From: Isoetes taiwanensis
Lineage: Eukaryota; Streptophyta; Lycopodiopsida; Isoetales; Isoetaceae
DNA: 64,000 nt
Assembly (NCBI GenBank): GCA_021234155.1
Contig: JAJEKV010000166.1
Location: forward strand, 436,324-500,323
Reading direction: 5' to 3'
Notes under the pieces: generated by a model
Seen by the model: the letters and a program-made list of their open reading frames with translations, nothing else
What the model was told of the DNA's origin: nothing
The model's database searches: none
Shown here: positions 33,149-59,275 of the stretch, in pieces
Position numbering within the stretch: the first letter of the stretch is position 1
Layout of the letters: every line of letters begins with the position of its first letter
Position numbers and translations under genes: made by a program

Positions 33149-36100
33149 TTTTTTTTTTTTTTTGAAGAACTATGTCATCAATATATTAAAAGAATGGTAA
33201 TGTTACAAAGCAAGTGAGGAGGAAGGAGAACTGCCCCAAAGAGACAGCGATACCTCGACACTCCACAACAAACTCACAGAAAAACTGCAACTCTATTGTT
33301 GTACAAACCGACCATCACCATCTACAACACCCAAGAAGTCCCGCCAAATGGAAAACTTCCGCTCTACTACTCCTGGGAACACCAGAAAGCTTTGAAATAG
33401 CTTGTACCGAGTCGAGGAATCGGAGAGGCTGCAAAATTCGCTTGAATCCCTCGAAAGATCCACAACCGCCGCTTCCAAATCAGCCACACCACCAAGCCAC
33501 GCACAAATGCAAAGGCTTCTTTTACGCCGCAAGAGCGGCCAAGCACCGAGATACACATGAAGTAGCAACTGGCTGGCTAGTCAATCTCACACAAACAGAG
33601 CCCTAACCCAATCCCAGGCAGCCCGCAAGTGAGGGCATAAAACCGCACAATGCTCCATGGGGCCTCACGATGAAGGCCACAACAAAGGGAGAGGGCTCAC
33701 ACCCGGCCTAAACCGACTCACAAGGGCATTCACCCCGATCACAGGTGCACCACCCGCCAGAAGCACCCTAACCCTCGGTGGGAGAAGTGAGCTCCATATC
33801 CACGTCCAAACCGAGCGCCGAGAACCCGAAGCTGCAAAGACCACTTGCACGAAGGGGGCGGTGTGTCATGAATAGCTTGACATCCGGTAAGAAGACCGCA
33901 CAAAGCAAAGAAGACACAACATCCGGATGAACCTTCCAAACCTGCACCACCACATCATCACGAGGGACTATAAGTATGTGTAGCGGAATACTCCGCCACA
34001 TGTTCCCGTGATAGCACGGTCCTTTGCCCCTGGTAAAAGCGAGCCTCGAAGAACTCCCACGAAGCTAGCTGACCACCCCAATACCAATCCTCCAAGGTGA
34101 GCACAGCAGCTCGCCTCCAACGAACTCAAGGTCCAGGAGCATGCACAAGGGCGACCAAGGGCAAGTCTTGGGGGGGTAGAGGAACCCACAAGAAAGGAGA
34201 AGAATGGTGATAAAGCGGAGGCATAATCTATTTGGAAGAGCACACGACATGATCCCAAGCCCGCAACACTCTGTGGAGAAAAGGGGATGCATGTGGGAAA
34301 GGCCAGAGACCATATAATGTGCCGTGGCAACTCCACATGCACAGACGGGCTTTCCAAATGCCACACAATGGCTTAAGAGACTGCAACAACAGCGCCGCAG
34401 GAGAAGATGCTCCATCCTGCGAGAATGCTCCAAACAAACTTGAGACCAACACCTTACTATGCAGCGCCAAATCCGAATAGCCAAGCCCCCATCCTCCCGG
34501 GGAGACACTTCCACCAAACCACTTTAACAACCGCCCTTCATCATCCCGCCCCACACAAAAATTTTGAACAATCTTATCAAGCTGTATCTTACCCTCGGGA
34601 GCTAGCATCGCAGATGTCATTATACATGAGTGCTACAAAGTACCGACTTGGCAATAGTGATTCTACACCGCCATGGACAACTTGCTACCCTTCCACCAAT
34701 TGAGGTGTTTCTACAACCCCCCAAAATCTCATCCCACACCCTCCCCATGGAAACATCTCCTCGAAAGGGAATACCTGACTTAGTACACACATTACCGAAG
34801 CACCTTCCAAGGAATAGAGCCAAACAAGGGGGAGGCAGAGTCATTTGGGCCATAATGCGGAGCACTTACCCCAATTAGGAAGAATGCACGAGGCCAAGGA
34901 GAAAGTATCCAACAAACCCTTCACATTTTTTAGCAAATTCTCTTACGCCACCAAGAAGAGGAAAGTGTCATCAGCAAACTGGTTAATAATCTGCTGGCTA
35001 CCATCCTGCATCCGAAGCCCATCCACCACTCCCTCCTCCACTGCAGCCAAAAACAACTGAGACAGTGCCTCCGCCACAATCGTAAACAAAAATGGCGCCA
35101 AAGGGCACCCCTGACGCACCCCTCTGCCTAAGGAGAAAAAAGGCGAGGGTTCACCGGGCACACCACCGTAGCGTCTTTGACCTATGCGGCTTCATGGTGC
35201 CTCTCAGTAAAGCGTGGACCACAGCCCAATGCTAACATCATGGCAGACAAGAACTCCCAACGGACACTATCGTAAGCTTTGGCAAAGTCAAGCTTAAGAT
35301 AGGCAATGCCTTGACCTGTTCTTCTGGCCCAATAAAGGCCCTCATAAGCTGCGGCAACATTAGTCAAAATGTTCCTCCCAGGGACAAACCCAGACTGCAC
35401 CTTACTAATGGAAGAAGTCAACACCGGCTTCAACTTCTGTCAGGGCTTTCGCAATAATCTTATACACGAGGACAACAAGGAGATAGGCCTCCAATCATTA
35501 ATAGTAGAAGGTCGCTTAACCTTAGGAATCAAAGGAAATGCATGCAAGATTCAAGATCCTATCCATTTGAGAAACTGGCAGCAACTCAAGATACACGTAC
35601 GGTACACCAGCCCCTCCCAATAATTCTGAAAGAACTCCACCGGGGATGCCATCCAGCCGGGACATTTATCCTTGGCCATGCACATACATGCCGCCGCTAA
35701 ATCCTCTCCGAGAGCTCACGCTTCAAGCTCCCGGCGGTGAGTGAGAATAGATGGCTTAACGACCCCCAAAACAAGCTCCACGCATCTCCGCTCCATAGGG
35801 AAGAGTGCGCTATATGAAAACCACGAAATGGGCATGCACATACCTCGCATATCGGCGGGATCCTCCAAAGTCCGCCATCAGCGAGAGCAAGGGGACGCCA
35901 TAGATGTTGCATATCGCCGCTGCCTAGCTACTCACGAAGAACACGGTGAACTTGTGTCCCCCTCCTTCAACCAGGTGGGGCCGCCTTCACGCGTGCCTCC
36001 TGCACTTTAACTGCTCCAGAGCAACAAGGCATTTGCAACACTTTGCATTCTCCCTAATGCCATCGAAGGTCGCGAATCCTCTCCAACTCTCGATAGAGAC

Positions 36101-37570
36101 CATGCAACTCGCCGTAAACCTGGCGCACAGCGCCTACCAAAGACCTTGGCAAAAGCGCTTCCACCCTGGCCAGCGTAGTCACCATACCGGACATACCCCG
36201 CCGAGATGAAAAGGTATCAAGCCACAACTCCTTGTCTTGGGCGAGAAATCCGCATCAGCTAGAAAGCAGGGTGTTCAAGCGAACACAGATCCTAAAGGCC
36301 GAGAGGCGACCGCACTATTTGGACAAAACACGAGGGTAATGATCAGAAATGGAGGTAGACGAATGTTACTCCGCCCCAAAGAGGGCATACCATCGGTACA
36401 GCGCATGGGGGAAGCATAACACCGGGTCATGTCTAGCATACGCCCGACCCTAACCAATCGCCCTATTACAATAGGTAAAAGACAAATCCCCTGGGGACCT
36501 CAACCAAGGCCAAATCTTGCAACAAACAAGACCACTGGTCCCTCTCAAACCCATGCACAACCTGGGTTCCAGAACCAGAGTGATCCTCTACTCGCTCTAC
36601 CATATTGAAGTCCCCTAACAACAACCAGCGACATTTAACCCACCAAGGGCTCGCCAACTTATTTGAAGCGTGGCCCATAAAGCACACGAGAAGGCTGATT
36701 AGGGGCATAAACATTAACAATCCCCACTCTTGCCCTCCCTCCAACCACTTAATTATTGCCCACCCGACCAAACCACATGCTCAGCTGCAGAGTGCGTGAC
36801 ACGCACATCCATCCTCCAAGCAATAAGAGTACCTCCACTAGTCCGCCCAGAAGAAGAAGCAATAGAGGCAAACTGCCTACCAACCATATTCATGAGCCTA
36901 GACATATCACCCTGCTGACACTTATGCTCCTGAATGCAAACAATATCGAGGGGCCTTGGCCGAAGTGCAAAGAAACACGGGCCCTCTTACTACTAGAGGA
37001 CCGCACCCGCACATTCCAACTAAGGATCGACCTATTCATCCCGGAGGAGAAGTGTCCACCCCACATGCTTACCCACCCGGGCCATCAGCCCCCCCTCCAT
37101 AGAGTCATCATCTAGAGCGGAGGATTAATCACGGCAATGTGACCCCACGGCCGCTCTACGTGAGATTCCACTTCCAACCGCGTGTTGGAAGTCCCCGTGC
37201 ACCTCCATAGAGTCATGGGCCACACTAGTCTCTACCTCCAAACTGGGCTGCTCCAGCCACCTCATGCTCGGCACATACCGCTCTGGGACATCCCCACTAG
37301 GATCACCGGCCCCTCCCACAGCCCCTGTCCTCGAGACCTAGCCACAACCAAATCATCCGAGGCCCTCCCACGAGCCACCATGTCCCCTAGCCACCCGCCA
37401 TCCAATGGGCGGCCAGCAAAGCAAGCCTGCCCCTCGCCTCGTCCCACCACCTCTCCCAACCACACCACCTCGCCCAACTCCCCACTCCAGCGCACCACGG
37501 GTCCTTCTCTCTGCATTTGCCTCGGGAGCGGAGGAATCCGGCCCCTGCATAAGCACCCTTGAAAGGAAGA
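33149..37570 (-). mobile_element. L1-type LINE, nearly full ORF2, broken
   Basis: The 3' end is marked by a T-run (33149-33163), the poly(A) tail on the minus strand. Reading leftwards from 37570: a Gly/Arg-rich ORF1-like stretch (to about 37110), then the APE endonuclease (DIVCIQEHKC at about 36950; LLLGDFNMV at about 36610), then reverse transcriptase with QSGFVPGRNIL, palm A LDFAKAYDSVRWEFL (about 35290) and palm C FADDTFLFL (about 34955), then the C-terminal zf-RVT region (GGWGLGYSDLALHSKVL, about 34480). This is the plant L1 order. Frames break often, so it cannot move by itself. At about 4.4 kb it is shorter than a full plant L1; the 5' end is likely truncated. No target-site duplication was found. 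Confidence 0.85.
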
Positions 37571-38249
37571 CACGTTCGGTTCGGATATTGCATCGTATAT
37601 GAATCTATGTAATATAAATATAAGTGACGATTAATTGGAGATCTATTTGTATTATTTGGAAAGGTTTGCTTTTCGATTGTAACATAAAAAATTAAAGTAG
37701 CTTCTGATGCAAAAAATATGAATATCATCAAATAAGGAAGTATTGTTTTTCGCACCATAGGCACGGTCTGCGAAATTATGTATAATATAAAATATGGAAG
37801 TGTTGAAGAGCGCACAGTAGCTTCTGATTGCGAAAATTCATTAGAGGTTTGATGGGATCACTTAAGGGCCCAACCCCGATGCCGACATGGAAAACCTACT
37901 AGGGTTGAGGCCTGAGACTCTAGGTTTCTAATGAACAGGCTGTAGATTCAAATCTGTATTTCATTAACAACCTCAAGAGTGTGGTTACAGTGCGCATTTG
38001 CCATATCCATAACCAATAGTTACATGCATTTCGTATTATGGCTATTATGCAACACTTTATTTCTTTCTTTTTAGGGCGTGGCTACGGTGCGAATTTGCCA
38101 TGTCCACAACCCAATGAATACATGCATTTCGCATTGTAACCATTGTGCCCTTTTTTCGTACTTTTTTCTTTTTTTTAGGGCGTAGCTATTTTATTATAAC
38201 TATGTGCGGATGTTGTGCTCACTCTCTTTTTATTGATATTTTAGACGGT
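37571..38249. other. AT-rich spacer between LINE and chromovirus
   Basis: No gene. A duplicated word, GCATTTGCCATATCCATAACC (about 37993) and its variant near 38090 with TACATGCATTTCG-like flanks (about 38021 and 38121), gives a roughly 97-bp tandem duplication with differences. Confidence 0.5.
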
Positions 38250-41200
38250 GTACGTCCCCCTCCGTGGGCGACGCCCAGGCCGTCTTACGCGATCATTCAC
38301 GAGTTCCAGGATCTCTTTCCAGATGAGATTCGAAAATTACCACCTTTTATGGGGATAAAGTGCGAGATTGCACTCCAACCAGGTACCAAGCCTACTAGTA
38401 AGGCTCCCTACCGCATGAGTACACCTGAGTTAGTAGAACTTAAGAAACAGTTACAGGAACTTCTGAAGCTCGGCTTCATTCGGCCCAGGGTTTCACCTTT
38501 TGGAGCCCCTATCTTGTTTGTTAAGAAGAAGGATGGGACTTTACGTATGTATCGATTACCGTCAGTTAAATAAGCATACTGTTAAAAATCGATATGCATT
38601 ACCATGAGCCGATGACCTGATGGATCAGTTGCAAGGAGCTAAGTATTTTTCTAAGATAGATCTTCGCTCAGGCTACCATCAAATCAGGATATTCACAAGT
38701 CCACCTTCCGTATCCATTATGGACATTATGAATTCACAGTTATGCCTTTTGGACTCACCAATGCACCAGCAACCTTCATGTCTCATGAACAATGTTTTCC
38801 GAGACTATTTAGACGAGCTTGTCATTATTTTCTTTGATGACATTCTTATCTATAGTAAAACCCTGGAGGATCATGAATGCCATCTTCAGCTAAGTTGCGG
38901 CGCCACCAACTCTTTGCTAAGTTCTCCAAATGCTTATTGGCGACCACCAAGATCGACTATTTGGGCCATATTGTCTCTGCTGATGGTATTACTACAGACC
39001 CAGCAAAAATCGAAGCAGTAAAAGAGTGGTCAGCGCGTACCAATGTTTCAGAAGTCCGAAGTTTTTTTGGGATTGGCAGGATATTACCGCAAGTTCGTTA
39101 GGGATTTCACTAAGATTGCAGCACCCCTTACTGACCTAACAAAGCATGAAAAGGTCAAGGATTGGGCAGCACATTGGAAAACCAAGGTCCAATCAGGCTT
39201 CCAACAGTTGAAGGATGCCTTAACGTCGGCATTCATCCTTACTTTACCTGATCCTCAGAAGGATAAGGCGGTTGTGACTGATGCCAGTAAGATAGCTACA
39301 GGAGTTGTTTTGATGCAAGAGGGACGAGTCATAGCCTATGACTCTAAGAAAATGAATGACGCGGAACAGAGATATCCCACTCATGACTAGGAGTTGCTTG
39401 CGGTCGTGCGTGCCTTGCGCATCTGACGACATTATCTTCTTGGACGACGGTTCTAACTAGCCACAGATCACCAAAGTCTCCACAGTCCAATCTCAATCTT
39501 CGGCAACGCAAGTGGATAGAATTTTTGGAGGAATATGACTTTGAGGTTCTGTATAAACTCGGTAAACACAATGTTATTGCAGATACCTTGTCTCGACATC
39601 CCTTGACCACACGTACCCATTGCAATGCTATTTCCACTCTTGCAAGTGAATTTGGAAAGACCATTGAGCAATCTCTTCCAACACATCCCGAGTTTTGCGA
39701 AGTGTGGGGCAGCTTTTCTAAAGAGGCCAGGACAGATAAGAAGAGGGACACATTTAAAGCATTATAAGAAGGACGGTAATCTTCTATATTACCGCAATAA
39801 GTTGTGTGTACCCGAGTCATCAGGAGTTAGGAGGCTTATCCTCCATGGCACACATAACAGCCCTATTGCTAGTCACGCTGGATTTATGAAAACATATTTC
39901 AAGAAGCATATTGCTCGCTACATTAAGCAGTGCCAACTTTGCCAACGGACAAAGGCTGAGCAGTTAAGAACGCCAGGCACACTGGAACCTCTTGATGTTC
40001 CCAATGCAAAATGGGAAGTCATTACCATGGACTTCATTGTAGGCATCCCATGCACACTTCGTGGATTTGACGCCTTGATGGTAGTAGTTGACAAGCTTTC
40101 CAAGATGGCGCATTTCTTGCCATGTCGCACCAACGACACTGCCTTGGACGTGACACTTTTATTCTCCAAGGAGATTTTTCGACTCCATGGGATGCCACGT
40201 ACCATTATTTCGGATCGTGATCCTAAATTTATTAGTGCTTTCTGGAAAGACTTCCTCAGCACTATATAAACCAAGCTTGCCATGAGTACGACCTATCATC
40301 CTCAGACAACGTACTAATCGAATTATTGAGGATATACTGCGAACTTATGTCACATTCACTTGGTAGAATTTGCCTATAATAGTACTAAACATGAGTCCTC
40401 AAGGATGTCTCCCTTTATAATCACCTATGGTTATCAATGCCTTACTCCAGATACGTGGCATAACCCGGTTTCCAAAGTGGCAGTTTCACAACAGTTGCTT
40501 ACGGATATGCAAGTTTTGGTAGAGGAGGTATGCGGGTATCTATTGGCAGCATGGAGTCGCCAAAAGAGTTTAGCCAATAGACACCGTACCCGGCGTGAGT
40601 TCCAGGTTGGTGAATCTGTATGGTTGAAGATCAAGGTTAAGCAGGCGAAGCTCAAAATTGGGAATTGCAAGAAACTAGCACCACGATGGGTGGGACCATT
40701 TCAAATTATCAAATGTATAGGTCCTCAAGCCTATAGGTTGAATTTGCCAGCTCATCTTAAGGTCCACAGGGTTTTCCACGTGAGCCTTCTGAAGAAGCAT
40801 ACCCTGGATCCTCATGAGATTCTGGATATGCCAACGCTTCTGGAGATGATGGATGAGCAGTTGGAAATTGTTCCAGAGGCTCTTCTCGACAGAGCATGTA
40901 AACAAATGAGAAGAATCCAGATATTGCAATATTTAGTTAAGTGGAAACACTTGCCTACTGAGGATGCCACTTGGGTGCTTAAACAAGATCTTGACAAGGC
41001 TTATCCCGACTTTATGCGGCAATGCCAGGGTCGGACCATCCACGATGCTATCGACTCCGACTCCAATGGTATGTAGTTGTGCAGTAGATCCGACAGGGAT
41101 CATGCAAGGGGGTTGGGGTAGACGCATCCTAGGACGGGGGGAATTGCATTTAGGCATATTAGGATGCTACCATCTACGGCTAAAATAAGAACATTGCCAT

Positions 41201-46078: not shown

Positions 46079-47017
46079 TTACACATGCTGATCCAACCAG
46101 AGTTTGATTTGAGAAGTGACAATAGTTCTGTTCTCTTCAGACTCACCTTGGAAAAGAGAATGGCGCATACCATCATACAATTTGAAGGTTTTGTCCTGGC
46201 TTTGAGCTCTGTTATACAGCTCCTGGCTAGCAGTTGGATCAGCAACAACATCATCAGTTCCATGCATAACAAGAAAAGGAGCTTTAACTTTCTCCAAATT
46301 CTTCATCAAATATGCACACATGCCAACAAGTTCTCTCATGGTTCCAACCCTAGGCTTACCTGTGTAGCGTCTAGGATTTCCACCAATAAGTTTACCTCTT
46401 TCTGGGTCCCTGATAGCCTTTCTAACTATGTTGTTCTCAGGCATAACAGCCCATGAATCAGCAAATCCAAGCATCAGCATTCTATATCCATACAGATGTA
46501 TCAGAGATGGTTTCATACCATCAGGAATCATAATCAATGGAGCAGAAAGAATAATCCCATCCCAGCCTTCAGGATCTTGCAAATGCATAAGTAGGGTTAT
46601 ACCTCCTCCCATGGATTCTCCAAATAGAAACCTTGGCAGATCCTTGTATGGCACAGAATCCCTAACAGATTTGAAATAAAGAAGGGATGTTTCTGCAAAT
46701 TTGTGCACATCATAGACATAGCCATGGATACCTTCTGATCGGCCATGACCTAACAGATCCGCCGTAAAGGCGCCATAGCCCCATTGCGCCATTAATATCG
46801 CCAAGCTCTGAAATAGCCATCCTGCATCGCTGCCGTAGCCGTGAGTAAGGCAAACTATGGCTTTTGGAGATCGGTTCAAGGGAAGAAAAGATTGAGTAAA
46901 GATCTTTCCGTTTGGAGTATCAAAATACTGCGAAGAATGCTTGATGCCCTGTGACGAATAGAAATCTTCTTCCGGGATGTCGCCCCAATAGTTTGCAGGT
47001 TTGCTCTGCTCCGCCAT
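46079..47017 (-). CDS. CSE: Caffeoylshikimate esterase-like alpha/beta hydrolase (MAGL family), intact single exon
   Basis: A 312-residue serine hydrolase of the plant monoacylglycerol-lipase family. Seen in the sequence: the N-terminal YWGDIPEEDFYSSQG and TPNGKIFTQSFLPL blocks typical of CSE/LysoPL2; HGYGSD (59-64), the H-x4-D acyltransferase-type box; the nucleophile elbow GESMGG with Ser135; HGTDD with Asp256; and GMRHSLFQGE with His286, giving a full Ser-Asp-His triad. RYTGKPRVGTMREL (217-230) is a hallmark. Known of the family: CSE splits caffeoyl-shikimate to caffeate and shikimate in lignin synthesis, and relatives act on monoacylglycerols or lysophospholipids. No signal peptide or membrane segment, so probably cytosolic or peripheral. 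The start is the first Met, with GCT-ATG-GCG context. Length is near the Arabidopsis 332. Which substrate this copy uses is inference. Confidence 0.93.
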   Translation of the reverse strand: MAEQSKPANYWGDIPEEDFYSSQGIKHSSQYFDTPNGKIFTQSFLPLNRSPKAIVCLTHGYGSDAGWLFQSLAILMAQWGYGAFTADLLGHGRSEGIHGYVYDVHKFAETSLLYFKSVRDSVPYKDLPRFLFGESMGGGITLLMHLQDPEGWDGIILSAPLIMIPDGMKPSLIHLYGYRMLMLGFADSWAVMPENNIVRKAIRDPERGKLIGGNPRRYTGKPRVGTMRELVGMCAYLMKNLEKVKAPFLVMHGTDDVVADPTASQELYNRAQSQDKTFKLYDGMRHSLFQGESEENRTIVTSQIKLWLDQHV

Positions 47018-52377: not shown

Positions 52378-53250
52378 AAACTGTGCTAACCTTCTCTAGA
52401 TCTATGGAGACACCTTGAGGTGTGATATGATAGCCAAGAAACTCTACATTATCCTGCTCTGTGCTAACCTTCTCTAGATCTATGGAGACACCTTGAGGTG
52501 TGATATGATAGCCAAGAAACTCTACGTTATCCTACTCAAACTGACATTTCTCCAGTTTGGCATAAAGTCCATGTTCTTGCATCTTCTGAAGGACCTTCCA
52601 ATCATATTCGTCATGATCTTCTAGAGTCTTCAAATAAGCTAGAATATCATCCAAATAAATGATAACAAAGAGATCTAACAACTCTCGAAAGACGTCGTTA
52701 CCCATGTATTGAAAGACCGCGGGAGCATTAATAGGGCCGAAGGGCATGACAGTATACCCAAAATGACCATATCAAGTTCGAAAAACTATCTTTTACTCGT
52801 CACTTTCTTTGATCTGAATAAGATTATTGGCACCTAGAAAATCAATTTTAGTGAATTACCATGCACCTTGCAGTCATTCAAGCAACTCTCAAATAAGAGG
52901 AAGAGAATGTTGATTGTGCATAATGAACTTGTTGGGGCTACACTCACTCGCAAGATTCTTCTCCATATAGGTCCGCAAAGCTTCTAACTCTGTTGGTAGC
53001 AAGGAGGGCCGTATGGTGGGTTTTTGTCCTTCGCTAGAGATCAATGAGGTAGTGTCATAGAGACAATGCTCCAGAAGCTTGCTGGCTTTAACCTTATTAA
53101 AAAAAATGTCGATAAAATCCTTGTACTTATCAGGAAGGACAGGGGTGGGCATCACTAAAACAGAGCTAGTGACGGATGAACTTGAATTGCAAATGTTGAA
53201 CTCGATCTTGCCTTTCAAATTTGATAAACTTGTGGAGATAAGTCTTCAAG
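52378..53250 (-). mobile_element. Ty3/gypsy reverse-transcriptase fossil, minus strand
   Basis: Minus-strand frames give a pre-RT stretch (VLPDKYKDFIDIFF at about 53140) and the RT palm (MPFGPINAPAVFQ and VIIYLDDILAYLKTLEDH at about 52745-52620). The sequence differs from the chromovirus at 38-43 kb, so it is a second Ty3/gypsy lineage. Only the reverse transcriptase region remains, with several breaks. Confidence 0.85.
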
Positions 53251-54989: not shown

Positions 54990-55859
54990 TCATTCTTGTC
55001 GAACCATTCTGGTTCAACGCCAGTCTTCAGCCTCTAGCTCAAGCCCTTGTATTCAGCTCTGATCTATCAAGTATTTCCAGTGTTCCAGCACGTTCTTTGC
55101 GCATTTCTCTCGTATTTTCCCTTTGTTTTTTCATAAGTTCTTGACAATCTCTCATCAGTTCTTGTTTGCCCCGAGATAAGTATTCCTTTGCCTATATTTC
55201 ATATGTTTTGTCTCTATGGAGGATATTCCATCATTGATCGCAATTACTAATTGTCAAAAATATAAATCATGCACTCCTATTCAAGCCTATTGCACTAAAG
55301 TAAAATTACTAATCTACAGGAGCCTTTTACATTTAGTATATCATGTTCACATTGTAATCCTAATTACCATGGTGATCTTGCTCCTCAGGAAACCCAAATT
55401 GTATTCTATAAACCCTAAAAAAACAGAGGCCTAATTAGGTGTTTGGTTTTTTTTTTTTTTTTTTTTTTTTTGGGTGTTGGGGGGCGGCACTCTTCTAAAG
55501 CCGTTAAAGGTCTTTGTCACATTGGGGGTCCATAGGTGGGCACCCTCCCTTAAAGGATATATTGTTCAGATGTACTTGCTTGTTGGTCTCCGTGGACAAA
55601 GTATAAATGCATTGGACTTGCTCGTTGGCCTCATTTCAAATGCATCTCATATGAATTGGTTTTCATTGAACAATGGTAAGAATGAACAATGGTAAGAACG
55701 GTAATTTGCATCAATGTATAGGATGGGTGGACAATGTCCTATTATGGTTCCTACTAGAAAGTATCAAATTGTATTGGAATTTCTTCCAAAGAAGAGCACA
55801 ATACAAGTAATGAACTTTCTGCAGTCATTAATCACATAGTATACAAATAACAATCTCTA
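54990..55859. other. Region 3' of the receptor kinase gene
   Basis: Contains a long T-run (about 55448-55470). No LINE sequence follows it. No AATAAA signal for the minus-strand kinase gene is obvious between 55700 and 55859. Short open frames have no domain. Confidence 0.4.
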
Positions 55860-58517
55860 CTACACATCTCCCTCTTCGTCAATAGAATAGGGGTTATTTT
55901 CGTCATTGACATGGCGATATCCTTGCTGGTTGAAGACATCATAACTACCCTCGAGCATTTTGACAACCCCCTTCATAGAGGGGCGCATATTAGCATCTTC
56001 ACAAGTGCACAAAAGTGCAACTTCTGTTGCCCGTCTCCCTTCTTCCTCATTGTAATCTTCCTGCATTAGCAATCGAGGATCAATTAATGTCCCATTTTTT
56101 ATGCTCTCCTTAGCCCACTCTGAAAAATTTGTAGATTCTTCTTCCAGTGCAACTGTTCCATAGCTTCTATGACCACTCAGAACCTCCAACACGACTATCC
56201 CAAAGCTGTAAACATCGTTCTTTTCGGAGACACTTCCATTTATCCATTCTGGTGCCAAATAACCAAAAGTTCCCATCATTTTAGTGATAAACATTGAAGT
56301 CTGATCACCAGGCATCAACCTGCACAGTCCAAAATCTGAGACCTTAGCATTGAATGATTCATCCAACAATATATTTTGAGGTTTGACATCTAGATGAAGA
56401 ATTTTGGGTTGGCATTCCTGATGCAAGTATGCTAGTCCTTGTGCAGTCCCTAAAAGAATTCTCATTCTCTTTGTCCAACTGAGAAAAACATCATCACTAA
56501 AGATCCATTTTTCTAAGGAGCTATTGGACATGAATTCATAAACAAGAAGTTTGTAAGGGCCTTCTACACAGAATCCCAGTAACTGCACAAGATTGACATG
56601 GTGTATCCTTCCCAAAGTCTCAATTTCTGTCTTAAATTCCTGCATTCCCTGGCTATTGCTTTCCAACTTTTTGACTGCAACCTTCTTTCCATCAAGCAAG
56701 GTTCCCTCGTATACTCCACCAAACCCACCTTTCCCTAGCATTTTGCTGAAGTTACTCGTAATTGCTTCTAATTCCGGATAGCTAAAATTGGACAAAGACA
56801 CCGTTATGTCAGGTGAATCATCTGGACGCCCACGTAAAAAAAGCCAGAGAAAAACTCTTTTGATTATTTGTATAGACAACCTGATAGACTGCATCTTTGC
56901 TGCATCAGATATGATGTAATGGGAGAAATAAGCCCATATTGAGGTAAACATCAAGATAAGAGTTAGCCCAGAGAAGGTTATTATAATGCCGTTTTGAAAA
57001 TATTGAGAAACAAGTTGTACACTGATAGAAATGAAGGCAGCAGCAGTGAAAAAGTTTAGAAAAACAACTAAGCAAATGCGTGCGGCGCGGTTGCAATGTT
57101 TACGTCCTGGCAGTTCTGTTATGATGAGACATATGGTGTTGATAACAGAGAAAGGGTAAAGGAAGAAGGAACCCCACGAAAAAATCTCTGCCACATATAT
57201 AGCTTGTTGATTATCAGGCTGTTGTTGTGCCACAACTGTTACATATGAGAACAGAATTGTTGTCATGTGCAGTATCACCAACACCTTGATAACTTTTGAA
57301 GAATTAGGGTTTCTGCGCAGGAACTTGAGTAGGAATATCATGGTGGTTTGCAAAGTGATTAGATCAATGGCCAAAGCAGCTGCTGTGAATTTTGTAAATC
57401 GCACATAGCTAAACCAAACATAATAATAATACATATCTATGTAATACCAATACAGATGATGGAGCAGCAAGCTAGGTAGTCTAGCCATGGCTGTTACAGT
57501 TGCAAAGGTCGAACAAATGATGATGATAAGCAGAACAGAGTTCAGACGAGAAGTCCTTTTGAAGACCCATAAAAATTGCAGGTAGATCATGGGAATGACC
57601 AGGCCAAGGATCAAACATGTAACCAATATTGTTTTCCAGCGGGCTTCAAGGCAGTTAGCAAAGGCAATGGAATTATCATAATAGGGCACTAGGGTTGTGC
57701 CATTATTTTTACCAGAACAACAAGCAGGGTGCCAACTCCACGTACCCGTTTCATATTTGTAGACGATGAAGGATCCATCCGGTTGCAGTCTCATGAAAAC
57801 GTAGTTTATGCTAGAGTATGTTCCTTCTATGAGCGCATCAATGCGTACTTGCCATCTGAAATCTGTAGGCAAATCGCTGCTGTTGAAGCTATACAGGCCA
57901 TCTTTATGGAGCTGAGCTTTTACTCCGCCTGTCCAAAGCTGGCATAGCCGTTTTGAGGAGCTTTCGTTCACCATTAGGGTTCCGTCTTGCCATATGGCTG
58001 TAGCACTTCCTGCTGAATACATCTGTGTAAAATTATGCCCTAAAGGTAGGATGTCTGATATGTAATCCGTGCTTTGCCATACCGCTGCATCGTTCCCATC
58101 ATACAGAACTAGGTTTCCGCTTGATTCCATCTTCCAGCTCTTCACGTCCTTGCCTGCCGACCAAACAGCTTCCTTGCCATCATCCTTCAGCACAATTGTT
58201 CCACTTGAATTTAGCACTAGCGTAGAATCCCATCCTACTCTCTGCTTTGAGTCCCAGATCATCTGAGGCTCTCCGTTGTCAATTCTCACAAAAATTCCAA
58301 ATACAAATTTGTGTTTTGATTTTGGCACTCGTTGAAAGGACAGCGAGAATTCCTCGTTACCTAAAATGGTGAATTTGTCGACCAGAACCGGATATAGGGG
58401 ACCCATATCAGTATCCCAGTGTACACTGCTAGGAATAAGAGTATAGTTGATTGAAAGAGATTGAGCTTGTATTGTAAAGCAGCATAATAAGAAGACGACA
58501 ATGGTTAGTAGCGCCAT
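55860..58517 (-). CDS. G-type lectin receptor-like kinase with a seven-helix membrane domain, intronless
   Basis: 885 residues, intact. Signal peptide 1-18 (hydrophobic, cut near IQA-QS). Ectodomain to about 293: B-lectin-like beta-prism with ESSGNLVLYDG...AVWQST (131-150), six N-glycosylation sequons, Cys 192, 266, 267, 289. Then seven hydrophobic helices: about 295-319, 327-345, 377-398, 410-430, 444-468, 481-502, 511-536. Loops meant to be cytosolic are basic (KRTSR 320-324, RRNPNSSK 401-408, GRKHCNR 471-477); the outer loop QQQPDNQQ is not. An amphipathic basic stretch (542-562) precedes the kinase. Kinase 590-857: GKGGFG (595-600), Lys616 in VAVKK, Glu631, catalytic loop HLDVKPQN with Asp710 (non-RD), DFG at 728-730, APE at 755-757, Arg845; closest to SD2-5-type lectin kinases. 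Probably a plasma-membrane Ser/Thr kinase; ligand and partners unknown. Known SD2 kinases have one membrane helix, so this architecture is unusual. Confidence 0.95.
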   Translation of the reverse strand: MALLTIVVFLLCCFTIQAQSLSINYTLIPSSVHWDTDMGPLYPVLVDKFTILGNEEFSLSFQRVPKSKHKFVFGIFVRIDNGEPQMIWDSKQRVGWDSTLVLNSSGTIVLKDDGKEAVWSAGKDVKSWKMESSGNLVLYDGNDAAVWQSTDYISDILPLGHNFTQMYSAGSATAIWQDGTLMVNESSSKRLCQLWTGGVKAQLHKDGLYSFNSSDLPTDFRWQVRIDALIEGTYSSINYVFMRLQPDGSFIVYKYETGTWSWHPACCSGKNNGTTLVPYYDNSIAFANCLEARWKTILVTCLILGLVIPMIYLQFLWVFKRTSRLNSVLLIIIICSTFATVTAMARLPSLLLHHLYWYYIDMYYYYVWFSYVRFTKFTAAALAIDLITLQTTMIFLLKFLRRNPNSSKVIKVLVILHMTTILFSYVTVVAQQQPDNQQAIYVAEIFSWGSFFLYPFSVINTICLIITELPGRKHCNRAARICLVVFLNFFTAAAFISISVQLVSQYFQNGIIITFSGLTLILMFTSIWAYFSHYIISDAAKMQSIRLSIQIIKRVFLWLFLRGRPDDSPDITVSLSNFSYPELEAITSNFSKMLGKGGFGGVYEGTLLDGKKVAVKKLESNSQGMQEFKTEIETLGRIHHVNLVQLLGFCVEGPYKLLVYEFMSNSSLEKWIFSDDVFLSWTKRMRILLGTAQGLAYLHQECQPKILHLDVKPQNILLDESFNAKVSDFGLCRLMPGDQTSMFITKMMGTFGYLAPEWINGSVSEKNDVYSFGIVVLEVLSGHRSYGTVALEEESTNFSEWAKESIKNGTLIDPRLLMQEDYNEEEGRRATEVALLCTCEDANMRPSMKGVVKMLEGSYDVFNQQGYRHVNDENNPYSIDEEGDV

Positions 58518-59275
58518 ATTTGCTCTTATTTTACAACAGCGACTGTCGAACCAGACACCAGAACAAGTTAGAGCCAGAATCTAGAACAAGCCAGACACTA
58601 GAAGAAGCGCCAAAATTTTGATTTGGCCAAACACTCTTCCATTGTCAAATCTACAGTCCAAAAACTAATATCTAATGACAAATATCTTAGTAACAGTCCA
58701 CACATAACTATGACTATCACTACAGGACTTCTGGCTCCCTTGTGTTTGGGAGTGAATGTATGCAGACCAATGTTAAATTTTAGTGCCATTTTGTCTCCGT
58801 GGACGTTAAAAAAACTATTCTATTCTTGTGGTTCACTTCAAATTTGTGGAGTGGTTCACTTCAAATTTGTGGAGTGGTTTGTAGACGCCCAAAAGTTATG
58901 ATGTAACTAGGGGATGGGGATATAATAATAATAAGGGGATATAAATATCTTTCTACAAATAATTTAATTGCCTCAAGTTTATAAGTCCAAAATGCAACAA
59001 AAATTTTCAAAAGTAAACAACAAAATGGCCAATTTTAGAACCGAAAGTTTTCTTCCGAATGCAAGCTTCTTGCTAAGTCTGTGTCGTAGAGTAGCGCCAG
59101 GCCCAGGCTGGGTTTACCGCCATTATTTCCTTTTTTTTTTCTCTCTGTTCTTGATGTTAAAATAGCAAAACTAGATAAAATTAATTCGGGACAAATTTTA
59201 TATTGCGTGTTTTTAGTGACGTAGTCAAATCCTCAAAGTCTTATGTGAAAAGCACAAAAATATAATATTATATTA
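58518..59275. other. Upstream region of the receptor kinase gene
   Basis: Should contain the kinase promoter. A TATAAA on the minus strand at about 58978-58983 would give a 5' leader of about 430 bases; unproven. A 22-bp direct duplication (GTTCACTTCAAATTTGTGGA) lies at 58832-58876, and CCAGACACYAGAA is repeated at 58551-58601. Confidence 0.4.

Follow-up and report, generated by a model that had tools for sequence, protein, structure and literature searches.

The window analyzed here is a stretch of 64,000 nucleotides from Isoetes taiwanensis. On its minus strand it harbors a gene whose predicted product joins a lectin-type ectodomain, a block of seven membrane helices and a protein kinase. 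An open-reading-frame check found 885 codons plus stop at 55860-58517, unbroken from ATG to stop, as the first-pass annotation had reported. The gene is intronless in the sense that it forms one open frame in the DNA, as read from the DNA only. Its features, all on the minus strand, are as follows.

55860-58517, minus: whole gene, 885 codons plus stop, single open frame
58461-58517, minus: signal-peptide-like hydrophobic start, residues 1-19 (hydropathy peak 2.12)
57648-58460, minus: ectodomain, residues 20-290, without a PAN or S-locus match
58020-58226, minus: B_lectin match, residues 98-166 (Pfam, 30.1 bits; curated cut-off 32.4)
57567-57632, minus: predicted helix 1, residues 296-317 (hydropathy, alignment)
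57477-57539, minus: predicted helix 2, residues 327-347 (hydropathy, alignment)
57324-57389, minus: predicted helix 3, residues 377-398 (hydropathy, alignment)
57225-57287, minus: predicted helix 4, residues 411-431 (hydropathy, alignment)
57111-57179, minus: predicted helix 5, residues 447-469 (alignment; lowest hydropathy in several rows; best conserved helix)
57015-57077, minus: predicted helix 6, residues 481-501 (hydropathy, alignment)
56916-56984, minus: predicted helix 7, residues 512-534 (hydropathy, alignment)
56820-56882, minus: juxtamembrane segment, basic and partly hydrophobic, residues 546-566 (alignment, hydropathy)
55959-56747, minus: protein kinase domain, residues 591-853 (Pfam, 154.2 bits)

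A Kyte-Doolittle scan of the window protein (19 residues, cut 1.6) revealed peaks at residues 1-19 and at centers 306, 336, 388, 421, 460, 490 and 520. The seven block peaks span residues 297-529 and coincide with the helix positions proposed in the first-pass annotation. Residues 1-290 contain six N-glycosylation sequons, and five to nine are found per member across the 15 paralogs described below. The mannose-binding motif of lectin kinases, QxDxNxVxY, is often degenerate in such kinases; it is degenerate in the window protein, which keeps N, V and Y, and varied among the paralogs. The kinase of the window protein contains a glycine loop, VAVK, HLDVKPQN, DFG and APEW.

Paralogs and single-helix relatives in the same genome

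A search of the I. taiwanensis assembly (1,658,258,908 bases, 1110 contigs) returned 55 matches. The loci fetched from among these matches include at least 15 full-length unbroken frames, that of the window (L001) among them, which lie on 15 different contigs and align over their whole length; one of them, L024, is two matches joined. Identity to the window protein in the other 14 members is 97, 57, 51, 46, 46, 47, 46, 45, 39, 39, 39, 38, 36 and 35%. The chain of lectin, seven helices and kinase first read from the window copy recurs in all 14, which supply homologs of like composition in this one genome, where the first-pass annotation had asked for several species. Loci L001-L035 comprise the 15 members used in the alignment, trees and counts, seven single-helix kinases (L027-L033) and 13 partial or broken loci that were excluded (L005, L009, L012-L015, L017, L021, L022, L025, L026, L034 and L035). 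A profile scan of 16 partial, broken or extra loci found pieces of ectodomain, block and kinase in order in nine, and one or two of the three parts missing in the other seven. Clustered matches occur on C943, C801, C1035 and C1007. The copy closest to the window gene is on C1067; identity is 95.9% across the gene-bearing stretch 55569-58794, 85.9-93.6% in eight of the nine collinear flank pieces and 95.9% in the remaining short one. This copy could have arisen by duplication or could belong to a second haplotype.

Trees of the ectodomain, the membrane block and the kinase each contain the same three groups: A (window, L002, L003 and L004), B (L006, L007, L008, L010 and L011) and C (L016, L018, L019, L020, L023 and L024). 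Support for group A is modest (74/86, 67/63 and 89/97 in the ectodomain, block and kinase trees, respectively), and the tree program warned of long branches in the ectodomain and block trees. The helix block of the window, used as sole query against the genome, matched members of all three groups. The results show that the predicted lectin-helices-kinase chain was inherited as one unit in three subfamilies.

The glycine loop, the catalytic lysine (VAVK or IAVK), HLDVKP[QN]N and DFG are present in 15 of 15 members. Leucine replaces arginine at the HRD place in the 15 members and in the seven single-helix kinases alike; kinases without arginine at this place are often called non-RD and are tied to immunity. 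The first-pass annotation assigned the window kinase to the lectin-kinase type, in agreement with its HLDVKPQN loop and with its being approximately half identical to the lectin kinases with one helix found in this assembly. A kinase tree was built from the 15 members, L027-L033, a lectin kinase of Urochloa and two kinases of the LRR type. In it, the members are split from the single-helix kinases by a branch supported at just 89/96, and the kinase from Urochloa groups with the single-helix side. B_lectin was matched in all 15 members at E 0.1 or better (best 2.2e-11), and Pfam at E 0.1 found no S-locus or PAN domain in any of them.

The family shares a signal-like start, B_lectin and an RLK kinase with the HLD[IV]KPQN loop with the G-type (B-lectin) receptor-like kinases of plants, for which SD2-type kinases is a family name. 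A Urochloa protein annotated with both B_lectin and kinase, P0001, shows 47% identity across 32% of the query, in the kinase part. The membrane portion is different. As had been stated for established lectin kinases, just one strong helix precedes the kinase in each of L027-L033 (7/7), whereas the family has seven. Their other peaks are near the start or, in L030 and L031, weak (1.59-1.63), and none of their frames matched a profile of the helix block at E 0.001. S-locus or PAN domains accompany B_lectin in five of the six single-helix kinases scanned with Pfam (L027 and L029-L033), some under cut-off, with none in L027. The B-lectin ectodomain and RLK kinase motifs of G-type lectin kinases are present in the family, and the single helix is absent, with seven segments in 15 of 15. 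These genes probably form a family of receptor kinases at the cell surface that has expanded in this lineage and has a seven-helix block where a single helix is usual.

Topology and constraint of the helix block

At the seven aligned places, 19-residue hydropathy is at least 1.29 in all 15 members and at least 1.5 in 101 of 105 cells; the four cells below 1.5 are all helix 5, in L018, L020, L023 and L024. An alignment-free count at a cut of 1.5 gave seven segments in nine of the 15 members, eight in L003 and L007, and six in the four members with the weak helix 5. Because the alignment-free counts vary, the number seven rests on the alignment and the single sequences together. Seven segments are kept in every member although block identity to the window drops to 22-28% in groups B and C, which argues against an ordinary single-pass G-type lectin kinase whose other segments are hydrophobic drift. 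Such a protein would fit the single-pass family from which the lectin and the kinase come, and helices 3 and 5 are the least hydrophobic ones in many rows, but L027-L033, with their single helix, are clearly different, and helix cores have fewer polar replacements than expected (see below). A single-pass protein is therefore highly improbable.

Lysine and arginine are more numerous in inner loops 1-3 than in outer loops 1-3 in 13 of 15 members; the basic inner loops noted in the first-pass annotation thus extend to all but L023 (4 inner versus 7 outer) and L024 (4 versus 6), which show the opposite. Mean loop charges across members alternate as seven spans require. Moreover, a signal-peptide-like start and a kinase that is necessarily inside require an odd number of spans. 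A predicted topology with the N-terminus out, the kinase in and seven spans is supported, and the lectin-out, kinase-in layout originally deduced from an odd number of helices fits both hydropathy and loop charges.

AlphaFold modeling of residues 285-572, with no alignment, produced a mostly helical, low-confidence model (pLDDT 54.2, pTM 0.35) in which nine helices are drawn, the extra ones being in outer loop 1 and after helix 7 (538-562). This model and the alignment-free counts of six in four members and eight in two would be expected with six or eight spans, if helix 5 were re-entrant or the juxtamembrane segment crossed the membrane. However, the start and the kinase demand an odd number, the mean loop charges alternate as for seven, the aromatic stretch in outer loop 1 of the window protein is gapped in group B, and the hydropathy of the juxtamembrane segment is just 0.23-1.51. 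Six or eight spans are accordingly quite unlikely, and seven is the preferred number. The juxtamembrane residues K553, R554, W558, L559, L561 and G563 are conserved in 12-14 of 15 members, and the segment is possibly a membrane-lying helix after helix 7. N460, I462, L464 and L469 of helix 5 are invariant, with P470 next; N488 of helix 6 and H533 of helix 7 are each kept in 14 of 15. The conservation of N460, T461, I462, L464, L469, P470, N488 and H533, which are invariant or nearly so, hints at packing or signaling roles around helices 5-7.

Replacements between nonpolar and strongly polar residues were counted over single-base changes in nine chosen pairs that share sequences, so that the comparison is not a formal test, although the contrast is large: 4 of 135 in helix cores (16.8% expected), 38 of 146 in block loops (20.8% expected) and 83 of 293 in the ectodomain (22.3% expected). 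The expectation is derived from nonpolar codons with transitions weighted twofold, and the observed changes are undirected. The avoidance of polar residues in helix-core replacements indicates that the block is kept as a membrane protein. The method of Nei and Gojobori was applied to those 17 of the 105 pairs whose kinase dS is less than 1.2. In these pairs the dN/dS of the kinase lies between 0.05 and 0.19 and that of the ectodomain between 0.22 and 1.23; the membrane block ranges from 0.15 to 0.93, apart from a single value of 1.91. Change is fast in the ectodomain and the block and slow in the kinase. Block values of 0.82-0.93 in six pairs and 1.91 in one may mean that part of the block is little constrained beyond hydrophobicity. 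In the pair with the highest value, L008 and L010, the helix block has 49 replacement and 8 silent changes, and kinase dN/dS is 0.18; it is possible that the helices of these two copies are under diversifying selection.

An assembly error, an intron or a pseudogene, with the block lying outside the protein, has next to no probability. The genome does contain many broken copies, as well as block fragments inside an apparent repeat, yet 15 full-length frames, that of the window included, are unbroken on 15 contigs, kinase dN/dS stays far under 1 and polar replacements are scarce in the helix cores. The predicted layout is real and maintained.

The helix block and a candidate receptor layout

No credible Pfam family was found for the helix block in any of the 15 members (best chance match 0.075). 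NCBIfam, scanned with five members, gave one chance match only (0.21), and a profile of the block gave no credible chain among PDB sequences (one chance match, 0.52). Foldseek of the AlphaFold model against the PDB returned 58 matches, the best with an E of 1.4, which is meaningless given the poor model. Since the model is too poor for naming a fold and no Pfam match is credible, the term GPCR-like describes layout only. The window protein had been given a GPCR-like topology in the first-pass annotation: hydropathy and loop charges support the predicted seven-helix, N-out layout, and the likeness to GPCRs is limited to that layout, with no credible match in Pfam or the PDB. No relative of the helix block was found in the protein database with the whole protein, residues 1-570 or an alignment of residues 1-572 as query; what relatives there were are kinase and lectin ones. 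The database returned none of this species' own paralogs, and absence there says little. Residues 1-570 matched nothing at E 10, and the alignment query, made from 9 of the 15 rows, had one match, the kinase/lectin relative P0001.

Block matches on C1019, C1090 and C974, with neither a lectin nor a kinase match within the 8-9 kb examined, were considered as a stand-alone block that could have been the donor and were rejected. These pieces of an L003-like block (L038:3966-4544, L039:3697-4177 and L040:4059-4214) are 81-90% identical to L003 and have a common downstream sequence, so that they resemble a fragment of a receptor transported within a repeat more than a gene. No donor of the helix block was found among the places read; further weak block matches lie, among others, on C930, C1029 and C1046:955248.

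It is unlikely that the block is a transporter-like or channel-like module with a kinase, or a multi-pass anchor, which would make the protein a transceptor or a scaffolded kinase. That no known 7TM receptor family is credible in Pfam and no fold is assigned would suit such a module, but no transporter family match is credible either, and a lectin-type ectodomain and an RLK kinase on opposite sides of the membrane are the usual parts of a receptor. The preferred reading of the gene is as a receptor, and its domain chain, which combines two receptor kinds already known, is a candidate for a new layout.

Plant receptor kinases are generally taken to signal by way of one helix, and plants are not known to have classical GPCR signaling. 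Searches of open-licence papers yielded no plant lectin-7TM-kinase. A 7TM block with a C-terminal kinase in one chain is present in the family at the sequence level. Kinase-fused 7TM receptors are known from oomycetes and amoebozoans (PMC6033456) and from choanoflagellates (PMC12716839), and a methods passage on GPCR-kinase fusions also mentions sponges (PMC12716839). GPCR-TKL (GPCR-bigrams) of oomycetes and amoebozoans (PMC6033456) and GPCR-TKL/K of acanthoecid choanoflagellates (PMC12716839) have seven helices followed by a C-terminal kinase domain, tyrosine-kinase-like or of another type, much as in the quillwort family; they belong to other organisms and are likened to it by layout only. 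The word lectin is absent from PMC12716839, the paper on choanoflagellate GPCR-TKL/K, and there the authors suggest that their own family arose by convergence. A passage describing oomycete GPCR-TKLs contrasts GPCR-bigrams with plant 7TM-RGS (PMC6033456). The plant 7TM-RGS protein AtRGS1 is likewise a plant seven-helix block on an inner signaling domain and is likened by layout; its inner domain is an RGS box, whereas that of the quillwort family is a kinase.

The chances appear evenly balanced that land plants, or at least quillworts, independently evolved a receptor class with a lectin, a seven-helix sensor bundle of undescribed fold and a kinase in one chain, whose ectodomain and bundle share the sensing of ligands. 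Such a class would parallel, in plants, the GPCR-kinase fusions known from oomycetes, amoebozoans and choanoflagellates. In the probable receptor family, the ectodomain would lie on the outer side and would bind a glycan or another ligand, either by itself or together with the bundle. Rearrangement of the bundle would then act on the kinase by way of the conserved motif of helix 5 and inner loop 3 (NTICL..RLPGR) and of the basic juxtamembrane segment, and the kinase would phosphorylate cytosolic partners like other plant receptor kinases. The fast-changing ectodomain and block, the conserved kinase and the clustered, broken and near-identical copies suggest a role in recognition, perhaps in defence. 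A family of this layout would point to 7TM-kinase fusions having arisen independently once more, and a multi-helix bundle wired to an RLK kinase would be a natural test of how bundles drive kinases. A survey of plant receptors kept LRR kinases with one or two helices (LRR-RLK filter, PMC10834447). Filters of this kind would miss receptors of the seven-helix layout.

Remaining features of the window

The region 34001-38000 has a GC content of 0.51, an AT skew of 0.17 to 0.23 and a GC skew of -0.16 to -0.20; GC content in the other 2-kb steps of the window is 0.36-0.47. Matches to an integrase core, a Tf2-1-type SH3 and a chromodomain, in two frames on the plus strand at 39625-41076, look like part of a Ty3/gypsy-type retrotransposon. 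An intact alpha/beta hydrolase of 312 codons (Hydrolase_4, 182.8 bits), presumably monoacylglycerol-lipase-like, is encoded on the minus strand at 46079-47017. Scans of the window with Rfam at the gathering threshold and for tRNAs had no match. Two 78-base units, 97% alike, lie in tandem at 52381-52537.
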